Shown: positions 6,724 to 21,896 of the stretch, one piece after another
How positions within the stretch are numbered: position 1 is the stretch's first letter
Layout: every line of letters starts with the position of its first letter
Assembly (NCBI GenBank): GCA_902629125.1
Contig: CACOPQ010000002.1
Coordinates: forward strand, 62,001-126,000
DNA from: an uncultured Alphaproteobacteria bacterium
GTDB taxonomy: Bacteria > Pseudomonadota > Alphaproteobacteria > Thalassobaculales > Thalassobaculaceae
Direction of reading: 5' to 3'
DNA length: 64,000 bases
Notes under the pieces: model-generated
Told to the model about the DNA's origin: nothing
Seen by the model: only the letters and a program-made list of their open reading frames with translations
Databases searched by the model: none
Made by a program: the position numbers and the translations under genes

Positions 6724-7881
6724 ATGGAAGAAAAAATAGATTTGGGCCTCCCAGGTGCAAACTGGGAAAACAGAGTTGTAGTCGCCATGTCGGGGGGCGT
6801 GGATTCCTCGGTTGCCGCGGCTCTTGTGGCAGAAGCAGGATATGAAGTCGTAGGAATTACGCTGCAACTTTATGATCATGGTTCGGCGATACAACGAAAA
6901 GGCGCATGCTGTGCAGGTGCAGATATTCACGACGCGCGATTGGTAGCAGAAAAGATCGGCATCCCTCACTACGTTTTAGATTACGAAAGTAAGTTCAAAG
7001 AATCTGTGATGGAAGAATTTGCTGATAGTTATGCTCGTGGTGAGACACCTATACCGTGTATACGCTGCAACCAAACGGTGAAGTTTCGAGATCTACTACA
7101 AACAGCTAAACAATTAGGTGCAAAAGCACTATGCACAGGACATTATGTTCAACGCGCTATCGGTAGATCTACTGTGGAACTACGTAAGGGTATCGATCAG
7201 AAAAAAGATCAGAGTTATTTTCTTTTTGCTACAACGTCAGATCAGTTGGAATACCTTCGGTTTCCGCTCGGCGGCCTCACTAAAGATGAGACAAGGCAGC
7301 ATGCAAATAGAATTGGACTTAATGTTGCTGATAAACCAGATAGCCAGGATATATGCTTCGTTCCTAATGGGAAATACGCGGATATTGTGAGCCGTTTAAG
7401 GCCGGATGCTATTGAACCAGGCGAAATAGTGGATATGGACGGCTCCGTAATTGGCAAACACGATGGCGTTGTAAACTTTACTGTGGGACAAAGAAAAGGT
7501 TTAGGTATAGGCGGGCGTTCCAGTCTGGCAGAGCCAGGCGCAACCGATCCGTTATATGTCGTTGATGTTAATCCGGCAGAGAGAAGGGTCGTCGTAGGTC
7601 CGCGCTCTGCGCTCGGGCGAAATCTGTTGAAAGTTTCAGAAATAAATTGGCTTGGAGATAAACCTATTTCTGGCAGCGGTGAGAAGTTGATGATTAAATT
7701 ACGGTCAACGCAGCAACCAATCTCAGGGACTCTTTTTTCTGAGGGTGGAGATAATGGTAAAATCGTCTTAGACGAATTGGAATTCGGAGTGGCTATTGGA
7801 CAAGCTGCCGTGTTCTACTCACAGGAGGATGCTACAAGAGTTCTTGGGGGGGGATGGATGACCGAAACTTCGTCATATTAG
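6724..7881 (+). CDS. mnmA: tRNA-specific 2-thiouridylase
   Basis: Makes 2-thiouridine at wobble position U34 of tRNA-Lys, -Glu and -Gln, using ATP to adenylate C2 and persulfide sulfur. The 385-residue protein has the PP-loop SGGVDSS (residues 23-29), catalytic Cys115 in IRCNQTVKF and persulfide Cys211 in DSQDICFVPNG, plus GHYVQR and FTVGQRKGLGIGG. The CC pair at 62-63 (GACCAGADIHDA) is, from memory, usual in alphaproteobacterial MnmA. ATG 6724 fits the usual short N-terminus; an in-frame TTG at 6676 would add 16 residues. Its sulfur donor is probably the desulfurase two genes upstream. Confidence 0.95.
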   Translation: MEEKIDLGLPGANWENRVVVAMSGGVDSSVAAALVAEAGYEVVGITLQLYDHGSAIQRKGACCAGADIHDARLVAEKIGIPHYVLDYESKFKESVMEEFADSYARGETPIPCIRCNQTVKFRDLLQTAKQLGAKALCTGHYVQRAIGRSTVELRKGIDQKKDQSYFLFATTSDQLEYLRFPLGGLTKDETRQHANRIGLNVADKPDSQDICFVPNGKYADIVSRLRPDAIEPGEIVDMDGSVIGKHDGVVNFTVGQRKGLGIGGRSSLAEPGATDPLYVVDVNPAERRVVVGPRSALGRNLLKVSEINWLGDKPISGSGEKLMIKLRSTQQPISGTLFSEGGDNGKIVLDELEFGVAIGQAAVFYSQEDATRVLGGGWMTETSSY

Positions 7882-7935
7882 GCGATTAGCTAACTGATAT
7901 TTAGTAAGTAGTTAAATTAATTAATCAGCCGTCAG

Positions 7936-7964
7936 TTGACAGTTGGCTTTAGCTTGAATATATC
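7936..7964 (+). promoter_or_regulatory. Sigma-70-like promoter of tRNA-Met
   Basis: TTGACA (7936-7941), a 17-bp spacer and TATATC (7959-7964) sit 19 bp before the mature tRNA. The -35 is a perfect consensus, and the expected start near 7971 gives a short 5' leader for RNase P. Confidence 0.7.
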
Positions 7965-7983
7965 CAACACCTGACTTCTTTTT

Positions 7984-8060
7984 GGCGGAGTAGCTCAGGT
8001 GGTTAGAGCAGTGGAATCATAATCCACGTGTCGGGGGTTCAAGTCCCTCCTCCGCTACCA
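7984..8060 (+). tRNA. tRNA-Met(CAU), elongator
   Basis: A 77-nt cloverleaf with the CCA end encoded. The acceptor stem GGCGGAG pairs with CTCCGCT (one G-U at the end), the D-arm is TAGCTCAGGTGGTTAGAGC, the anticodon arm GTGGA/TCCAC flanks the loop ATCATAA with anticodon CAU, and the T-loop is GGTTCAAGTCC. A paired 1:72 end and the absence of three G-C pairs in the anticodon stem exclude the initiator. The acceptor stem differs from the tRNA-Ile(CAU) sequences I recall, so elongator Met is the best reading. Confidence 0.93.
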
Positions 8061-12541: not shown

Positions 12542-13426
12542 ATGACTTCAAAATTTAAAGATAAAATATCGGTTGTAATACCGACATACAATAGAGCTCA
12601 AACAATAATGAGAGCCATTAACTCTGTGCTCAGTCAAACACTTCCAGCCTTTGAGATACTCGTAGTTGATGATGGATCTTCTGACGGTACAAAAGAATTG
12701 CTCCAAGCGCACGGCTTTTTTAATAAGAAGACTAAGGCACTAGCAAAAAAGTATCTTGTAAAAGAAAATAGTGGCGTAAGCTCTGCGAGGAACCTTGGTA
12801 TAAAAAACGCTAACGGTGATTTTATTGCTTTTCTTGACTCCGATGATGCTTGGAGTAAAAGGAAATTAGAGCGGCAATTTGCAGTGCTGAAAGAAAACCT
12901 TTTTAAGCATAGGATTATTCACACAGACGAGATTTGGATCAGAAACGGTGTGCGGGTAAATCAACATAAGAAGCATGAAAAGTCAGGCGGAGATATTTTT
13001 GAAAAATGTTTAGCCTTATGCTGTATCTCGCCGAGCTCCGTCATATTACATCGGTCAATTTTTGATGAATACGGTTTTTTTGATGAAACAATGCCAGCCT
13101 GTGAGGATTATGATATGTGGCTGAGATTGGCAGCCTGTGAGATGGTATTATTCGTGCCGGAGTTTTTGACGATAAAATATGGCGGTCACAGTGACCAATT
13201 GTCGCGAGCCCACTGGGGTTTGGATAGATTTCGGGTTAGGTCGCTTGAAAAGTTGATTCGCTCTGGCTCGATAACGCATCCGCAACGTGAGCTCGTGATC
13301 AAAACATTAATACAAAAATTAAACATTCTTGAGGCAGGGGCAAGAAAGCGCGAACAATTTAATGCTGCGAAAGAATATAGGGATAGAAAAATCCGATGGG
13401 AAGGGGAAAAGCAGTTTGCTAATTAA
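12542..13426 (+). CDS. Glycosyltransferase family 2
   Basis: A 294-residue GT-A-fold glycosyltransferase. It shows KISVVIPTYNRAQTI near the N-terminus, LVVDDGSSDGT for nucleotide-sugar binding, and FLDSDDAW, the DxD-type metal site, near residue 102. No membrane segment follows, so it is a soluble or peripheral enzyme; acceptor and sugar are unknown. ATG 12542 is chosen over an in-frame TTG 15 nt earlier. The upstream 250 bp are very AT-rich and contain no gene. The 3' end overlaps the phosphorylase by 11 nt, so it may be translationally linked to the next three genes, but a GT2 has no obvious place in DNA repair. Confidence 0.85.
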   Translation: MTSKFKDKISVVIPTYNRAQTIMRAINSVLSQTLPAFEILVVDDGSSDGTKELLQAHGFFNKKTKALAKKYLVKENSGVSSARNLGIKNANGDFIAFLDSDDAWSKRKLERQFAVLKENLFKHRIIHTDEIWIRNGVRVNQHKKHEKSGGDIFEKCLALCCISPSSVILHRSIFDEYGFFDETMPACEDYDMWLRLAACEMVLFVPEFLTIKYGGHSDQLSRAHWGLDRFRVRSLEKLIRSGSITHPQRELVIKTLIQKLNILEAGARKREQFNAAKEYRDRKIRWEGEKQFAN

Positions 13427-14285
13427 CAAGCAAAAGAAATTAGGTCGAGGACCCGACTTTTCCATCTGTTGGGTCGTCGCATTGCCATCCGAAGCACGAC
13501 CAATAATATCTGCACTCAGACTCACCAAAACAGATAATGAGGCGGTATTTCCAATTTATAAAAATGAGGTTTCGGGACACCTAATGATAATTAGCGGTAT
13601 CGGTCAAATTAATGCAGCTGCGGCAACTTCATATATTTGTGGTCGGTATGATATTCCTGCTTGGGTAGCATGGATAAATATAGGAATAGCAGGATATGCC
13701 GAGGAACCATTAGGGAAACTTTTTCAGGTAGCTAAAGTCACAAATGAGAGAGGAACTCGAGTTGTATACCCGGGATTTAGATTGTCGAAGCTAATGCCTC
13801 TTACAACTTTGGAAACAAGAGAACAACCATGTAATGACTACAAAGCTGACACGCTATATGACATGGAGGGATTGGCCTTTGCGGAACTGGCATCTCGATT
13901 TTCATGTAACGAGTTAACATTTTTATTTAAGATTGTTTCTGATTCAAATGTAAATCAACTTCGTCGGATTAACCCTTTATGTGTTGAAAAGCTTTTAACC
14001 CTGAATATGGACGTCATTGCTTTGCTGGTTGATGAAGTCAAAGCATTTGTCAGAGAGGAAAAAAGACGACTTGATATTTCTCATGAAGTCGAAGTTGTCT
14101 TGAGTAAATTTCATTTTTCAGCAAGCCGAAAAGCCCAATTGATCCAGAAGTATAGAAGATGGAAAACAGCGTTCCCGGATACTCCTTTCAGTGAAGTTTA
14201 CACACATGCAAAATCAGCCGGCGATGTCATTCATAGTTTGGAAGAAACGCTTACCTCAGCAGTCTTCGATAGGCCAGGTTCATGA
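13416..14285 (+). CDS. Nucleoside phosphorylase-like protein with C-terminal extension
   Basis: PNP/MTA-nucleosidase fold: VALPSEARPIISAL (residues 21-34), ISGIGQINAAAA (59-70), WINIGIAGY (87-94) and LYDMEGLAF (147-155), the last being the DMEG/nucleobase-contact element, followed by VSDSN where the general acid Asp usually sits (IxDxA). A charged, probably helical stretch of about 108 residues (181-289) follows the core; I do not recognise it. TTG 13416 is chosen because GGGAAGGGG stands 9 nt upstream and gives an 11-nt overlap with the glycosyltransferase; ATG 13362 is the alternative. Its stop overlaps the radical SAM gene by ATGA, so the two proteins are probably made together. Substrate nucleoside unknown. 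Confidence 0.75.
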   Translation: MLINKQKKLGRGPDFSICWVVALPSEARPIISALRLTKTDNEAVFPIYKNEVSGHLMIISGIGQINAAAATSYICGRYDIPAWVAWINIGIAGYAEEPLGKLFQVAKVTNERGTRVVYPGFRLSKLMPLTTLETREQPCNDYKADTLYDMEGLAFAELASRFSCNELTFLFKIVSDSNVNQLRRINPLCVEKLLTLNMDVIALLVDEVKAFVREEKRRLDISHEVEVVLSKFHFSASRKAQLIQKYRRWKTAFPDTPFSEVYTHAKSAGDVIHSLEETLTSAVFDRPGS

Positions 14286-15286
14286 TCGACACGATATTTA
14301 TCGAACAGGAAATTTTGGATTATGAACGCACAAAGGTGGTACTTTCAAAATTCCCAAGAAGTAGAAGAATAATCATTTCTAGATACCAAGAAGTTTTTAA
14401 TAAGCGCACGCAGAACTTTAGGCTCCAGAAAAAGCGACCAGCACTCATCCTTGCAAGTAAACACAAAAATTTTGTGTTGCCAGCTCCAGCAGGCTTTGGA
14501 ATTGGTACGGAAAAAAACTTCTATTTTTCGCATATGTATAACTGTCTTTACGACTGTCGATACTGTTTTCTTCAAGGGATGTATTCATCGGCAAATTATG
14601 TATTGTTCGTGAATTACGAGGATTTTTATTCGCAGATTGAAACAACTATTAGCGATAATGCTGAGGGTCGAATAACGTTCTTTTCCGGATACGACTGTGA
14701 TTCTTTAGCATTTGAAAAGATTTCTGACTTTCTGAAAAACACACTGCCTATTTTTTATGGACGTGAGAGGGTTGATCTGGAATTACGTACCAAAAGCGTC
14801 CAGCTTGAGCCACTACTCTCTTTAAAGCCGCAGCAAAACTGTATTGTTGCCTTCAGTCTTATGCCTGAAGAACTCGCACAAAAATTGGACAATAAAGCTC
14901 CAAGTATTTCGCGCAGAATTTCCGCATTGACGCGTCTTGCGGAACGGGGTTGGCCAATTGGTCTGCGGTTTGATCCATTGATTTATTCCTACGATTGGAA
15001 AGAGAAATATGAACGGCTAGTAAGGTCTCTCCTAGAGGTATTGCCTAATGGGGCAATTCATTCAATTAGCTATGGGCCACTGCGTTTTCCCAAAAAAATG
15101 TATAGTGAAATCTTTAAACTATATCCAGATGAAGACTTATTCTCATTCTCCATGAAAGAGGCAAATGGTATTGTATCGTATGGAAATGAAATTGAAGATG
15201 AGATGTCAGATTTTATTCTCAGTCAACTTTCAGGTGCTGTGTCTTCAGATAAAATTTTTCAATGTCTTTCGGAGACTCAAATATAA
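14282..15286 (+). CDS. Spore photoproduct lyase family radical SAM protein
   Basis: A 334-residue radical SAM enzyme. The cluster cysteines are Cys88, Cys92 and Cys95 in NCLYDCRYCFLQG, the C-x3-C-x2-C motif with the YC(Y/F)LQG ending of spore photoproduct lyase (SPL). Cys139 in GYDCDSLAFE lies 51 residues after the first cluster Cys, the same distance as Cys141 from Cys90 in Bacillus SPL as I recall it, where it is the H-atom donor. ELRTKS and the RFDPLIY and LRFPK segments further fit the family. No spore-forming lineage is suggested, so the substrate may be a UV thymine dimer (5-thyminyl-dihydrothymine) in dry or dark-stage DNA, or another base. ATGA overlap with the phosphorylase couples translation. 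Confidence 0.85.
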   Translation: MIDTIFIEQEILDYERTKVVLSKFPRSRRIIISRYQEVFNKRTQNFRLQKKRPALILASKHKNFVLPAPAGFGIGTEKNFYFSHMYNCLYDCRYCFLQGMYSSANYVLFVNYEDFYSQIETTISDNAEGRITFFSGYDCDSLAFEKISDFLKNTLPIFYGRERVDLELRTKSVQLEPLLSLKPQQNCIVAFSLMPEELAQKLDNKAPSISRRISALTRLAERGWPIGLRFDPLIYSYDWKEKYERLVRSLLEVLPNGAIHSISYGPLRFPKKMYSEIFKLYPDEDLFSFSMKEANGIVSYGNEIEDEMSDFILSQLSGAVSSDKIFQCLSETQI

Positions 15287-15298
15287 AAGAGGATAAAT

Positions 15299-16006
15299 TT
15301 GACGGATAAATGCGCAGTGGTTACGGGAAGTTCTAGCGGTATAGGTAAAGCCGTTTGCGAACTTCTTTTAAAAGCTAACTATAAAGTTGTAGGAATAGCG
15401 CGGGATCATTCCAAGTTCACCCCGAATGACAATAATTACTTTCCATACGAAGTTGATCTCAAAGATCAAAGCCAAACGACAGATGTTGCCAAGGCTCTGT
15501 TGAAAGCACATCCAGAAGCCACCGTGCTTGTGAGTAATGCCGGGCAAGGAAGTTTCAACCCGATTGAAAACTTTTCTACTTCGCAAATTAAAGATTTTCT
15601 GGATTTGAACTTAATCTCACATATTTTACTCAGTCAAATTTTTGTTAGACATTTAAAAGCGCGATCGGGGGGTAATATAATTTTTTTGGGTTCGGAAGCC
15701 GGACTTACGGGTAAACGCAAGGCTACTTTGTATTCGGCAGCTAAATTTGGGCTAAGAGGGTTTTCACAGGCATTGAGTGACGAGGTCAGGGCAAGTAATA
15801 TCCGTGTTTCTCTAATAAATCCTGGTTTGGTGCGCACACCTTTCTTTGATTTGCTTGGATTCCGCCCCGGTGATGAACAAACACACGCGATAGAAGCGGA
15901 GGATGTAGCGCAGGTTGTTATGACTATTTTGTCGTCAAGATCTCAGACAATAATGGATGAGATAAATATGTCGCCTGCTAAAAATGTAATTAAATTTGAC
16001 AGCTAA
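15299..16006 (+). CDS. Short-chain dehydrogenase/reductase
   Basis: A 235-residue classical SDR: cofactor loop TGSSSGIGKAV near residue 10, SNAGQGS (NAG) near 80, catalytic Ser in FLGSEAG and Tyr-Lys in LYSAAKFGLRG. The TTG start has AGAGGA five nt before it and lies 12 nt after the SPL-type gene, so it is the last gene of that operon. Substrate unknown; its position suggests it works on, or regenerates cofactor for, the same pathway as the phosphorylase and radical SAM enzyme (inference). Confidence 0.88.
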   Translation: MTDKCAVVTGSSSGIGKAVCELLLKANYKVVGIARDHSKFTPNDNNYFPYEVDLKDQSQTTDVAKALLKAHPEATVLVSNAGQGSFNPIENFSTSQIKDFLDLNLISHILLSQIFVRHLKARSGGNIIFLGSEAGLTGKRKATLYSAAKFGLRGFSQALSDEVRASNIRVSLINPGLVRTPFFDLLGFRPGDEQTHAIEAEDVAQVVMTILSSRSQTIMDEINMSPAKNVIKFDS

Positions 16007-16066: not shown

Positions 16067-16483
16067 TTAGCTCTTACATAATAATATAGTTCCGTCACTC
16101 TTGATTTCTAATTCTTGTCCGCTTTTAAAAGAAGGGTTTTCCATAGCAATGATTGGAATAGTGGCCCAGCCCATTTGTTCAGCAACTAGAACACTTATCG
16201 GGAGGATAGCATCTTTATTCGTTCCAAGGATAAGGCCCTTTGGAGCATTTTTTGAATAGAGCAATTCAAGTAGTATTGCAGCGGAAGAACTTGAACCGAT
16301 AGGTTCAGGTACAATCAATATTTTGTCAGTGATCTTTACCCCTCGCTGGGGGTGTTTCTCTAATATTACCTCGGCATTTTCAGGACTGATACCTCCCCAA
16401 AAACTTATTGGAGCATCTAAGCGTAAGACCTCGCCTTTTGCGGTTCCAGAATACAACACTTGTCCGCACCAGCTCATTTCCAT
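16067..16483 (-). CDS. Aconitase X swivel (small) subunit
   Basis: The 138-residue DUF126 swivel domain. It shows the GTAKGEVLRLDAPISFWGG opening and KILIVPEPIGSSSSA, the loop that closes over the active site, then the NKDAILPISVLVAEQ segment. It pairs with the large subunit encoded just upstream. Start candidates are ATG 16483 and ATG 16477; the latter forms an ATGA overlap with the large-subunit stop, so the two are translated in coupling. Two-subunit bacterial AcnX enzymes have been reported to dehydrate cis-3-hydroxy-L-proline; this is family knowledge, not proved here. Confidence 0.88.
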   Translation of the reverse strand: MEMSWCGQVLYSGTAKGEVLRLDAPISFWGGISPENAEVILEKHPQRGVKITDKILIVPEPIGSSSSAAILLELLYSKNAPKGLILGTNKDAILPISVLVAEQMGWATIPIIAMENPSFKSGQELEIKSDGTILLCKS

Positions 16484-17733
16484 GGACCGTAATTTAATGT
16501 AGCTGACCCCTTTTGCGCGCTTTTTACACAATCAGATAGTGATCCAAATATGGGGCGGTACCCCGTATTGCCCGCACTGTAATGCGCGAACTTGGCCGAG
16601 TTAGTCATCATTATTCCACCACTGCCCGGCAATATTGGTGTAACAACCACACAAGTATCGATTATGAACACCACGCCAATTCTTTCTAGTCTGGAATAAA
16701 TATCTTGGGTTTTTAATTGTTGAGCGGTATGACGATTTGTGCAGACGTAAACTGGTACTTTAAATTTTTTTTCGTCGGACATTTCTAGTAATTGCTCACA
16801 TTCCGAAATTGAAAAATGGGGGCTTCCAAGCGCAACGCAGTCTATTGACCCTGCTTGTTTAGTTTGAGAAAGTTTATGAAATGCGCCTTTCATCATATCC
16901 ATATCTATAGATATAATTTCCCTTGGCCGCTGTGTATTAAAAACGTGCCGCAAATCGGTAGCTTCAGGTGTAATTCCAATGATGTGAACTAGTCCAACAG
17001 CACCGGTAGATGCAGCTGCTGCGCAAAGCGCCTTTAATTGATCCTCAGATACAATCCAATTTATACCTGATACAGCGCAGATACTGTCGCTGGAGAGCCT
17101 TCCGATAAGAGAACCTAAAACCGGAAAAAACGTATCTTCTTCTTTCACCTTTTCAGGGAGGCCAGTTACATCTAGCAAGATTTCTGCGTGGCGGTTTTTG
17201 CTACAGTGCAATCCATAATACGGAGCTCTGCCACTCACTGCACATGCTATATCCAGAAAATCTCCATAACGGTTAGTGCGCGCACCTAAGACAGTGTTTG
17301 CAAAAGCAACCGCATTAGATTCTCCCCAAGCGACTTGTTCGCCTTTTTTTGGACGCGCGCCTATTTGGTAAGGTGCACACGTCCAACTTGGGGTGCAGCC
17401 CATATTTACATGAGCATCCATTAATCTTCGCGCCATTTGTAATTTTTCTGAGGAAAGTCTAGCTTGATTAGTCTTTAAAAAATTTACGGCGCCGACGTTG
17501 GTGGTTGTTGGAACTTTAGTCTTGGCGCCATTTTTTGCTAAACTCTCACAAAACAACACGCCGGAGTCACCGTGATAAAGGCAGCCATCAATATGGCTTG
17601 AGGTAATTTTTACCAGTCTTTTTGCGCCAAGCATTTCCGCAGCTTTGACGACAATACTAAGTGCTGTTTTGTCACCAGTTGTTCCAAACTCCGAATTGAG
17701 TATAGCTTTTTCTTCCTGCGTAATTTCAACCAT
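16474..17733 (-). CDS. Aconitase X catalytic (large) subunit
   Basis: The 419-residue DUF521 catalytic subunit, an Fe-S hydro-lyase distantly related to aconitase. Recognisable stretches include SSHIDGCLYHG, NVGAVNFL, MGCTPSWTCAPYQ, WGESNAVAFANTVLGARTNR, CTNRHTAQ and GSGGIMMTNSAKFAHY. The conserved cysteines in GCTPSWTC and near CVVVTP are candidate cluster ligands. Bacterial heterodimeric AcnX is a cis-3-hydroxy-L-proline dehydratase in studied cases, giving pyrroline-2-carboxylate. A proline-racemase-family gene lies about 5.5 kb away, which would fit hydroxyproline use, but they are not in one operon. AcnX genes often sit near transport genes; none is visible here. Confidence 0.9.
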   Translation of the reverse strand: MVEITQEEKAILNSEFGTTGDKTALSIVVKAAEMLGAKRLVKITSSHIDGCLYHGDSGVLFCESLAKNGAKTKVPTTTNVGAVNFLKTNQARLSSEKLQMARRLMDAHVNMGCTPSWTCAPYQIGARPKKGEQVAWGESNAVAFANTVLGARTNRYGDFLDIACAVSGRAPYYGLHCSKNRHAEILLDVTGLPEKVKEEDTFFPVLGSLIGRLSSDSICAVSGINWIVSEDQLKALCAAAASTGAVGLVHIIGITPEATDLRHVFNTQRPREIISIDMDMMKGAFHKLSQTKQAGSIDCVALGSPHFSISECEQLLEMSDEKKFKVPVYVCTNRHTAQQLKTQDIYSRLERIGVVFIIDTCVVVTPILPGSGGIMMTNSAKFAHYSAGNTGYRPIFGSLSDCVKSAQKGSATLNYGPWK

Positions 17734-18767: not shown

Positions 18768-19769
18768 ATGAAAATGTTTAAAACAGTTTTAAGTTTGATC
18801 ATGCTAATGGCAACGTGGCTTCGCATTTCGTTAAAAAGCCTTACTTTGGTAGGTGTTTTCATCTCTATTTCTTCATCAGCTCTGGCCAATCAAAAAGTGA
18901 CATTATTATTAGATTGGTTCGTAAATCCAGACCATGGACCAATAATTATTGCAAAGGAGAAGGGATTTTTTTCAGATAGAGGGTTGGAGGTAGAGATAAT
19001 TGCACCAGCAGACCCAGCAGATCCTCCAAAATTAGTTGCAGCAGGTAAAGCCGATTTGGCAATTTCTTATCAACCGCAGCTTCATTTGCAAGTTGCCGAA
19101 GGCATGCCACTTACCCGTGTGGGTACGTTAGTAGCAACGCCGTTAAACTGCTTGTTGGTATTGGCAAATGGCCCCATTAAAAATATCTCCGATTTAAAAG
19201 GAAAAAAAGTTGGCTTTTCTGTAGCTGGCGTTGAGGAAGTATTACTCAAAACTATCCTTGAACGGAACAATGTCAATCTATCCGATATTGATCTTGTGAA
19301 TGTTAATTGGTCCCTATCGCCGTCTTTGATGTCAAAGCAGGTGGATGCAGTCATAGGTGCCTTTCGAAACTTTGAACTTAACCAGATGGATATTGAGGGT
19401 GTGAAGGGCCGCTGCTTTTACCTTGAGGAGGAGGGTTTACCAGCATACGATGAATTAATTTACGTTGCCAATAAGACTAAACTAGACCGTGACATGATTA
19501 AGAAGTTCTTGGACGCAACAGAACTAGCAACGCAATATATGATAAATCATCCGCGGCAGAGTTGGGACATTTTCAAAAACACCTCAAAAGAGTTAGACGA
19601 TGAACTAAATAAACGGGCCTGGGTTGATACCTTGCCACGATTTGCACTAAGACCCGCAGCGCTTGACCATGGGCGCTACTCACGCTTCGAAAACTTTTTA
19701 AAAGAAGCCGGTTTGATTAAGAAACAGAGCCCAATAGATGACCTAGCAATAGATATTGGGAAAAATTAA
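18768..19769 (+). CDS. thiY: Thiamin pyrimidine ABC transporter, substrate-binding protein
   Basis: A 333-residue periplasmic binding protein of the NMT1/THI5-like type, for formylaminopyrimidine or HMP-like thiamin breakdown products. It has a signal peptide with a long hydrophobic stretch ending ISSSALA near residue 40, then the family opening TLLLDWFVNPDHGPIIIAKE, and VAAGKADLAISYQPQ and LKGKKVGFSVAG motifs. It sits directly downstream of a TPP riboswitch. The next gene starts on its stop (TAATG). Confidence 0.93.
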   Translation: MKMFKTVLSLIMLMATWLRISLKSLTLVGVFISISSSALANQKVTLLLDWFVNPDHGPIIIAKEKGFFSDRGLEVEIIAPADPADPPKLVAAGKADLAISYQPQLHLQVAEGMPLTRVGTLVATPLNCLLVLANGPIKNISDLKGKKVGFSVAGVEEVLLKTILERNNVNLSDIDLVNVNWSLSPSLMSKQVDAVIGAFRNFELNQMDIEGVKGRCFYLEEEGLPAYDELIYVANKTKLDRDMIKKFLDATELATQYMINHPRQSWDIFKNTSKELDDELNKRAWVDTLPRFALRPAALDHGRYSRFENFLKEAGLIKKQSPIDDLAIDIGKN

Positions 19770-20443
19770 TGCAAAATTACGGAAAGACATTTCAATTGTG
19801 GAGGAAGGCCGCTGGCAATGAATGGAATGAGTACACGAACCATACTTTTGTTCAAAAGTTAGCAGACGGAACACTGCCAAAAGAAAACTTCGTTAATTAT
19901 TTGATTCAAGATTATGTTTTTCTAATCCATTTTTCTAGAGCCTGGGCATTAGCTATAACAAAGGCGGAAACTTTAGAGGAAATGCGACTATGCGCAACGA
20001 CAGTTAATGCGCTTGTCAACGACGAGATTAGCTTGCATGTGAAACTTTGCGCAGAAGAGGGAATTGGAGAGGCTGACTTATTTAATGCTATCGAAGCAAC
20101 GCCCAATCTAGCTTACACCAGATACGTTCTAGATGCTGGGCATAGCGGTGACTTTCTAGATTTAATTGCTGCGCTTGCCCCCTGTGTTCTGGGATATGGC
20201 GAAATTGGTCATACGATTTCAAAAAAAGAGCATAGTTCTGAGTATTCCGATTGGATTTTGACTTATAGTTCTGAAGAGTATCAGGGTGTTTGTGTCGATG
20301 TGGGCAAATTAATAGATCAGGCTGTTTCTATTCGCTTGGGTGAGAGCCCTGCTCAAAACCCAAGGTGGCACAGATTAATTAGCCGTTTTGTAATGGCGAC
20401 AAGGCTTGAAGCAGGTTTTTGGCAAATGGGATTAGATATTTAA
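19769..20443 (+). CDS. tenA: Aminopyrimidine aminohydrolase / thiaminase II
   Basis: A 224-residue all-helical TenA protein. It deaminates aminomethyl-HMP from degraded thiamin, feeding HMP to the pathway. Recognisable elements are NHTFVQKLADGTLPKENF, YLIQDYVFL (Asp48 contact) and Cys139 in LAPCVLGYGEIG, the catalytic cysteine. It starts on the stop of thiY (TAATG) and its own stop overlaps thiZ in the same way, so the operon is tightly coupled. Confidence 0.95.
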   Translation: MQNYGKTFQLWRKAAGNEWNEYTNHTFVQKLADGTLPKENFVNYLIQDYVFLIHFSRAWALAITKAETLEEMRLCATTVNALVNDEISLHVKLCAEEGIGEADLFNAIEATPNLAYTRYVLDAGHSGDFLDLIAALAPCVLGYGEIGHTISKKEHSSEYSDWILTYSSEEYQGVCVDVGKLIDQAVSIRLGESPAQNPRWHRLISRFVMATRLEAGFWQMGLDI

Positions 20444-21159
20444 TGCAAAGCCTTTTGTTCGAGGGAAGTGCATGGATAAATGAAACACAAATATTTCCAA
20501 AAATCTCATTTACCATGCAGGCAGGTTCCTGGACGTGTATGCTTGGACCATCTGGAGTTGGTAAAACAACCATACTCAGGCTTATAGCGGGCTTGCCAAG
20601 TGAAATAGTACTCGATGGCAGCATCGTATTGAAAGGGGGTGGAAGACCATGTGGTCAGATTTCTTTGATGTCTCAAACGGATAACCTACTGCCTTGGTTG
20701 AGCGCTACAGAAAACGTTGTGTTGGGGAATCGCCTGCGAGGTGAAAAACCAAACTATGATAAAGCAAATGAATTGATAGGAAAAGTCGGGCTAACCGATC
20801 ATAGAAAGAAAAAACCGTATGCTCTTTCCGGTGGCCAACGTCAGAGGGTAGCGCTTGCAAGAACTTTAATGGAAGAGCGTCCAATCGTGTTGTTAGATGA
20901 ACCATTTTCAGCACTAGACGCTCGTGTTCGCGCGGAAATGCAAGAGCTTGCAGCACAGCACCTTGAAGGTAAAACAATTTTATTAGTGACCCATGATCCA
21001 GCCGAAGCAGCGCGCCTCGGTGAAAGCATTCTAGTGCTTTCTATGAATGGCATTAAGGATGTGTGCCCGCCAGCAGGCGGCATTATTAGGGCGTATGACG
21101 AACAAACTGTTCTAGCTTGTCAAGGGCAGCTCCTTCGACTTTTGCGAGAAGAAATATGA
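20443..21159 (+). CDS. thiZ: Thiamin pyrimidine ABC transporter, ATP-binding protein
   Basis: A 238-residue ABC ATPase. Walker A GPSGVGKTT (near 33-41), Q-loop SLMSQTD, signature LSGGQRQRVALART and Walker B IVLLDEPFSALD with the switch HD in LVTHDPAEAARLG are all present. Its closest well-known relatives are nitrate/taurine-type ATPases. It starts on the tenA stop and overlaps thiX by ATGA. Confidence 0.93.
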   Translation: MQSLLFEGSAWINETQIFPKISFTMQAGSWTCMLGPSGVGKTTILRLIAGLPSEIVLDGSIVLKGGGRPCGQISLMSQTDNLLPWLSATENVVLGNRLRGEKPNYDKANELIGKVGLTDHRKKKPYALSGGQRQRVALARTLMEERPIVLLDEPFSALDARVRAEMQELAAQHLEGKTILLVTHDPAEAARLGESILVLSMNGIKDVCPPAGGIIRAYDEQTVLACQGQLLRLLREEI

Positions 21160-21896
21160 AATCGTCGTTGCGACTTATCCTTATTACGGTTGCTTTATTT
21201 CTATTTTGGCATTTTCTAGTAAAATTTGCCGAGTTACCAAAATTCATTTTACCTAGCCCATTGCTTGTGATGCAGACATTCATCTCGAGTTTTTCACTTA
21301 TCCTAAAACATGCAGTTGTGACCGGGACTGAGATATTGCTTGGACTTTTGGCTGGAACAGTGCTGGGGTCTTTCACCGCTATCTGCTTAGCTATCTCACC
21401 AGTTGCTAGAACTATCGTTCGTCCTATGATGGTTTTGAGCCAGGCGCTTCCTGTCTTTGCGTTAGCGCCAATACTAACTTTGTGGCTAGGGTATGGATTA
21501 TGGCCAAAAATTCTGATGGCTTTACTAATAATTTATTTTCCTGTTACCTCTGCATTTTTTGATGGGCTTATGAATACACCTAAGGGCATGTTAGATCTAT
21601 CTCGTGTGATGAATGGAACCCCCTGGCGTATTATGTTTAACTTAAGAATACCAGCTGCAGTACCGGGTTTAGCTTCTGGATTAAGGCTTGCTGCAGTATA
21701 TGCCCCAATTGGTGCGATAATAGGGGAGTGGGTAGGCGCATCGGAAGGACTCGGTTACTTGATGCTACTCGCCAACGGAAGAGCCAAGATAGATTTGATG
21801 TTTGCCGCCTTGCTTGTCTTAGTCTTCATGACGTTGATTTTACACTGGAGTATCGATCGTTTGGGGAATAGTTTAACAGCAAGAATGAGCCCGTAA
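21156..21896 (+). CDS. thiX: Thiamin pyrimidine ABC transporter, permease
   Basis: A 246-residue inner-membrane permease with about six hydrophobic segments. The EAA-type loop is visible as MNGTPWRIMFNLRIPAAVPGL-like residues around 150-175, which dock on ThiZ. It is the last gene of the riboswitch operon; no thi biosynthesis gene is next to it, so the operon serves uptake and salvage only. Confidence 0.92.
   Translation: MKSSLRLILITVALFLFWHFLVKFAELPKFILPSPLLVMQTFISSFSLILKHAVVTGTEILLGLLAGTVLGSFTAICLAISPVARTIVRPMMVLSQALPVFALAPILTLWLGYGLWPKILMALLIIYFPVTSAFFDGLMNTPKGMLDLSRVMNGTPWRIMFNLRIPAAVPGLASGLRLAAVYAPIGAIIGEWVGASEGLGYLMLLANGRAKIDLMFAALLVLVFMTLILHWSIDRLGNSLTARMSP

Follow-up and report, generated by a model that had tools for sequence, protein, structure and literature searches.

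A recurring gene cluster pairing an MTAN-fold nucleosidase with a spore photoproduct lyase-like radical SAM protein in Alphaproteobacteria and other bacteria

The cluster and its products

In the present work, we analyzed a stretch of 64,000 nucleotides (the window) from an uncultured alphaproteobacterium (contig CACOPQ010000002.1, positions 62,001 to 126,000), focusing on four plus-strand genes that overlap or nearly touch one another at positions 12542-16006 of the window. In order, they code for a family-2 glycosyltransferase (GT2), a nucleosidase, a radical S-adenosylmethionine (SAM) protein with the fold of the spore photoproduct lyase (SPL), and a short-chain dehydrogenase/reductase (SDR). 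A preliminary description, made from the sequence alone, had recognized the last three as tightly coupled open reading frames on one strand and had called the glycosyltransferase linked to them; this layout was confirmed. The GT2 gene (12542..13426; Pfam Glycos_transf_2, 9.6e-33) overlaps the nucleosidase gene (13416..14285, TTG start, TGA stop; protein P0001) by 11 nt, which makes the set a four-gene unit, and AAGGGGAAAAG lies immediately 5' of the TTG at 13416. The nucleosidase and SPL-like genes share an ATGA overlap (the TGA ends at 14285 and the ATG begins at 14282); the stop codon of the SPL-like gene (14282..15286, ATG start, TAA stop) is separated by 12 nt from the SDR gene (15299..16006, TTG start, TAA stop), whose start is preceded by AGAGGAT. 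The overlaps suggest that the genes are co-transcribed; a promoter and terminator scan gave counts close to the shuffled expectation. The dN/dS values calculated against a congener were about 0.21 for the nucleosidase, 0.10 for the SPL-like protein and 0.08 for the SDR, showing that the three genes are under purifying selection.

The preliminary description had regarded the product of 13416-14285 as a nucleoside phosphorylase-like protein. The superfamily fold was borne out, the name phosphorylase was not: the structural matches of the AlphaFold model (pLDDT 90.9) are overwhelmingly hydrolases at the top, the Foldseek list consisting mainly of MTA/SAH nucleosidases (Pfs/MTAN) and futalosine hydrolases (E down to 2e-12). 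Judging from this model, the protein would be better named a nucleosidase (hydrolase) than a phosphorylase. The match to PNP_UDP_1 (5e-5) lies under the Pfam gathering score, the score with the MTA/SAH nucleosidase model PRK05584 is 22 bits (cut-off 169), and 28-29 of the 32 members of the family match nucleosidase or futalosine hydrolase models weakly. With an identity to solved structures of about 12-24%, MTAN is only a distant relative. The two share the fold and three catalytic residues, E31, E156 and D181 of P0001 being the equivalents of the catalytic Glu12, Glu174 and Asp197 of E. coli MTAN; P0001 differs from MTAN in its very low identity, in a dedicated partner and in an extra helical C-terminal domain. 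The latter is a conserved extension of about 90 residues (203-290 of P0001; WHFTxSQ..L..LLRRW) with no Pfam match, possibly a partner-binding domain. The Glu/Glu/Asp residues are kept in every member covering them, except for two SAR116 loci (L039 and L041), in which the SPL-like and SDR genes beside this nucleosidase are intact.

The second gene of the trio had been assigned to the spore photoproduct lyase family. The fold and the radical SAM signature support this assignment; membership among the true SPLs is contradicted by the catalytic residues and by the phylogeny. The protein matches PF20903 (5.3e-23), scores 99.8 bits with TIGR04070 (cut-off 400) and 77 bits with TIGR03886 (cut-off 437.6), and its AlphaFold model (pLDDT 89.8) gives full-length Foldseek matches to SPL structures, including 4FHG (TM about 0.8). 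It shares with SplB (TIGR04070, PF20903; PDB 4FHC-4FHG, 4K9R and 4RH0) the whole fold, the equivalent of Tyr97 (Y94) and the CxxxCxxC motif (CLYDCRYC in translation, residues 88-95, plus strand 14543..14566), whose cysteines C88, C92 and C95 are invariant in the family. In the B. subtilis SPL, Cys141 is the hydrogen donor and Tyr99 takes part in the relay that regenerates SAM; the mutants C141A and Y99F use one SAM and make one 5'-deoxyadenosine per turnover (PMC3742179; PMC5368176). In the window protein, which is about 18% identical to SplB, the two residues are replaced by Tyr137 and Phe96, respectively. The multialignment revealed Tyr at the Cys141 position in 92 of 94 core sequences (the two exceptions are Roseomonas proteins of another family) and Phe at the Tyr99 position in 89 of 94, the Fusobacterium and gut members having Tyr. 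Unlike SplB, these proteins are always accompanied by a nucleosidase and are not tied to spores.

Furthermore, the SPL-like proteins group in a single clade (99/98), which sits on a long branch and is separate from the true SPLs and from the TIGR03886 "spore photoproduct lyase family" proteins of Deinococcus, Nostoc, Granulicella, Methylobacterium and Roseomonas. The latter have a homologous radical SAM core, fall into separate clades, carry either the Cys141 equivalent or Glu at that position and, where their neighbors are annotated, adjoin neither a nucleosidase nor an SDR, unlike the genes studied here. SPL-like proteins from viral contigs (L095-L108) fall into different groups, in which the residue aligned with Cys141 is Glu or Cys. 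Net charge was discarded as a sign of nucleic-acid binding, the pI ranging from 5.8 to 9.7 within the SPL-like family and overlapping that of true SPLs.

The third gene of the trio is an SDR, as first described (adh_short, 6.9e-43): the protein is a classical reductase with TGSSSGIG (TGxxxGIG), the triad S132-Y145-K149 and a basic R35 after beta-2 (NADPH-type), the triad and R35 being invariant in alignment A7. The GT2 belongs to a distinct subfamily with the motifs HTDE-W-RNG ... CEDYD-WLR ... GGH-DQLS and is 44-57% identical to the GT2s adjoining the same trio elsewhere.

Recurrence of the set and pairing of its genes

The preliminary description had proposed the absence of the trio outside this lineage as its own refutation; on the contrary, the set recurs in Alpha- and Gammaproteobacteria, Fusobacterium and two human-gut contigs, and its nucleosidase and SPL-like genes in Candidatus Uabimicrobium. 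Genome contigs were scanned with the SPL-like alignment; out of the 455 relatives obtained, 80 loci were retained, and their neighbors were called with profile thresholds. Beside the SPL-like gene, a nucleosidase was found at 43 of the 80 loci, an SDR at 69, a GT2 at 35 and all four genes together at 29. Most intergenic gaps measure from -30 to +25 nt, small overlaps or gaps being the rule, and the arrangement is far beyond chance. The nearest relatives of the window set are from alphaproteobacteria of the SAR116 cluster; the other hosts are further marine alphaproteobacteria and gammaproteobacteria, including methanotrophs, among them a methanotrophic endosymbiont of a Bathymodiolus mussel. 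One locus each was found in metagenome-assembled genomes labelled Marinimicrobia and Myxococcales, both of which may be mis-binned. The distribution is patchy, the SPL-like gene being present in none of 361 good Pseudomonadota genomes, a thin sample; the coverage of Bacillota and Fusobacteriota is anecdotal.

The nucleosidase and the SPL-like protein are the obligate core of the set, the SDR and the GT2 being frequent but optional partners. When the two core proteins were searched separately, identical sets of 10 out of 61 relatives were positive; in the order containing Methylobacter (G061), both profiles matched the same 44 of 101 genomes (lists compared by eye). The genomes in these counts are related and not independent, and no p-value is claimed. 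In most of the 44 genomes, the two genes lie at distant positions or on separate contigs; hence, linkage alone does not explain the identical sets. Two genomes of the same order (L178 and L179) retain the full GT2-nucleosidase-SPL-SDR cluster, which suggests a later dispersal of the genes. In Fusobacterium vincentii, the nucleosidase and SPL-like domains are joined in one protein of 623 residues (L011, 8098-9969) with an SDR gene downstream. A housekeeping MTAN (6e-81) is encoded separately in this organism. The "fused" nucleosidases of 517-538 residues in G507 and G511 were rejected, their N-terminal part lacking any match and looking like a spurious high-GC reading frame.

As for the partners, strong GT2 matches (E < 1e-100) are confined, among the 61 relatives, to the trio-bearing genomes (9 of 10; none of the remaining 51); the gene is present, unlinked, in Uabimicrobium, and the subfamily was not found in Fusobacterium. 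The SDR was not found in Uabimicrobium, in G043 and G058, and in most of one gammaproteobacterial group.

Some loci depart from the common picture. The records of L011, L012 and L013 look mislabelled: the Fusobacterium "plasmid" measures 2.1 Mb, and the two "bacteriophage" scaffolds carry genes of bacterial chromosomes. A phage origin of the set was rejected: these two records seem bacterial, with apparently chromosomal genes (glycerol kinase, by eye), and the IMG/VR matches belong to other SPL-like families. In L012, where the local order is SDR, nucleosidase, SPL-like, the nucleosidase frame appears truncated or frameshifted (7505-7987). A dual-specificity-phosphatase-like gene stands between GT2 and nucleosidase in L061, L067, L072 and L079; in L061, L067 and L079, a gene resembling a sodium/proline symporter follows the SPL-like gene, in the usual place of the SDR.

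A possible pathway and its alternatives

No published description of this gene set was found in the open-licence literature, in agreement with the first reading of the locus, which knew of no pathway for it. We tentatively propose, with a likelihood that we place below even, that the set is a conserved, uncharacterised biosynthetic module for adenosylation, adenine removal and subsequent SDR and GT2 steps. Since the Cys141/Tyr99 relay is replaced, the SPL-like enzyme should be unable to recycle SAM and would consume it: it might cleave SAM without regeneration and join the 5'-deoxyadenosyl radical to an acceptor. The dedicated nucleosidase would then hydrolyse the N-glycosidic bond, giving adenine and a ribosyl-type (aldehyde/hemiacetal) product, the carbonyl of which might be reduced by the SDR; the GT2, where present, might glycosylate the product. 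The second idea of the preliminary description, the synthesis of an unusual nucleoside, may hold in the wider form of a nucleoside-derived compound.

The proposed order of steps is drawn by analogy from two known systems, with a radical enzyme of a different family. HpnH/HpnG of the hopanoid side chain likewise combine a radical SAM enzyme with an adenine-removing one, followed by reduction and glycosylation; the reduction and glycosylation of ribosylhopane are a precedent for an SDR and a GT2 as later partners (PMC12583986). HpnH belongs to another radical SAM family, and the module has no linked hopanoid genes and occurs without HpnH. MqnE/MqnB (aminofutalosine synthase/futalosine hydrolase) also join an adenosylating radical SAM enzyme to an MTAN-fold nucleosidase; here, an SPL fold takes the place of MqnE, and 28 of 32 nucleosidase members match the futalosine hydrolase models weakly, far below the family cut-offs. 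Given the strict pairing and the fusion, the simplest account makes the nucleoside released by the SPL-like radical enzyme the substrate of the nucleosidase. Moreover, the presence in Fusobacterium of a housekeeping MTAN besides the nucleosidase fused to the radical enzyme suggests that the latter nucleosidase has a substrate of its own.

Several points weigh against this proposal. SPL chemistry is the abstraction of a hydrogen atom and not the addition of a radical, and the entire SPL fold is retained, so that a bond-breaking reaction like that of SPL is possible. A nearby cysteine, Cys139, lies only two positions away from the missing Cys141 and could donate hydrogen. It shows no variation in alignment A2, and the alpha- and gammaproteobacterial members have it, but the proteins from Fusobacterium, the gut and L010 carry Thr, Ala or Ser instead. 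Several carriers of the nucleosidase and SPL-like genes lack the SDR; therefore, the reduction step is not universal. Lastly, the two SAR116 loci mentioned above (L039, 6179-6991; L041, 6179-6991) keep a nucleosidase gene that has lost the equivalents of Glu174 and Asp197.

The strongest alternative, which is possible though rather improbable, is that the SPL-like enzyme is a hydrogen-abstracting lyase or catalyzes a rearrangement, cannot recycle SAM, and has a nucleosidase that merely clears inhibitory 5'-deoxyadenosine, the SDR reducing the product or 5-deoxyribose. Against it, no other radical SAM enzyme is known to depend on a nucleosidase of its own, a single shared housekeeping enzyme serving them. 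The loss of the relay does predict one 5'-deoxyadenosine per turnover (PMC3742179), MTAN-type enzymes do hydrolyse this compound, strains without MTAN failing at biotin synthesis (PMC6302742), and both the fusion and the strict pairing are consistent with product removal. The nucleosidase, however, is only distantly related to MTAN (12-24% identity, as above), and Fusobacterium keeps the fused copy in spite of its housekeeping MTAN. Since this explanation also leaves the GT2 unaccounted for, we prefer adenosylation by a small margin.

Salvage of a modified nucleoside appears unlikely. According to this hypothesis, the nucleosidase would free an unusual base, the SPL-like enzyme would cleave it to a usable precursor, and the SDR and the GT2 would act on a fragment. 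In favor of it, SPL itself is a lyase that fragments bases, the carriers include bacteria of the human gut and mouth, and queuine salvage by a nucleoside hydrolase and a base lyase (QueK/QueL) is a precedent (PMC11130926). Against it, a glycosyltransferase would not be expected, and no transporter or tRNA gene was found to recur beside the module across lineages. QueK and QueL are not known to share protein families with the module enzymes, and the MTAN fold would set the nucleosidase apart from the queuosine hydrolases.

The idea, advanced in the preliminary description, of repair or salvage of UV-damaged thymidine (spore photoproduct or dimer, in DNA or nucleotides) finds some support in the full-length SPL fold and in the sunlit waters that SAR116 inhabits. 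It is nevertheless very improbable: the hydrogen donor Cys141 is missing, the clade is distinct from true SPLs and TIGR03886, and the partners are a GT2 and an adenine-type nucleosidase, not a thymidine phosphorylase. Moreover, the carriers include Fusobacterium (oral/gut anaerobe), gut bacteria and the deep-sea Bathymodiolus symbiont, and the 361 Pseudomonadota genomes sampled lack the SPL-like gene. Least probable of all is a role in hopanoid side-chain synthesis or a replacement of HpnH/HpnG, which the common enzyme logic and the many hopanoid-making methanotrophs among the carriers might suggest: neither Fusobacterium nor the SAR116 carriers tested gave an HpnH match over the cut-off, so that hopanoids are not the acceptor in general. 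HpnH does occur alongside the module in G043, G466, Uabimicrobium and the two methanotrophs that were tested, and the two systems are therefore independent.

If the adenosylation proposal holds, it would add a further case, in a new enzyme family, of the SAM adenosyl group being used as a sugar building block. The wider claim is more doubtful, namely, that several phyla share a pathway in which an SPL-derived, SAM-consuming adenosyltransferase and an obligate nucleosidase (fused in Fusobacterium) give a ribosyl- or ribityl-extended, often glycosylated metabolite. The pairing in cis, in trans and as a fusion makes the pathway testable in marine SAR116, methanotrophs, Fusobacterium and human-gut bacteria, with Methylomonas, Methylobacter and Fusobacterium as cultured hosts. 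As for annotation, these proteins match PF20903 and would be filed as spore photoproduct lyases, though the repair residue is missing.

Neighboring genes

A possible anti-phage defence system was rejected, none of the four proteins matching a PADLOC model. In methanotrophs, proC, yggT, argB, dsbB and priA lie beside the module; they are housekeeping genes, judging from their sequences, do not recur elsewhere, and were discarded as partners. In the window, two minus-strand genes at 16067-17733 resemble, by eye, the small and large parts of aconitase X. Lastly, the genes at 18768-21896, coding for a periplasmic binding protein, a TenA-like protein, an ATPase and a permease, resemble, also by eye, an operon for the uptake of a thiamine precursor.

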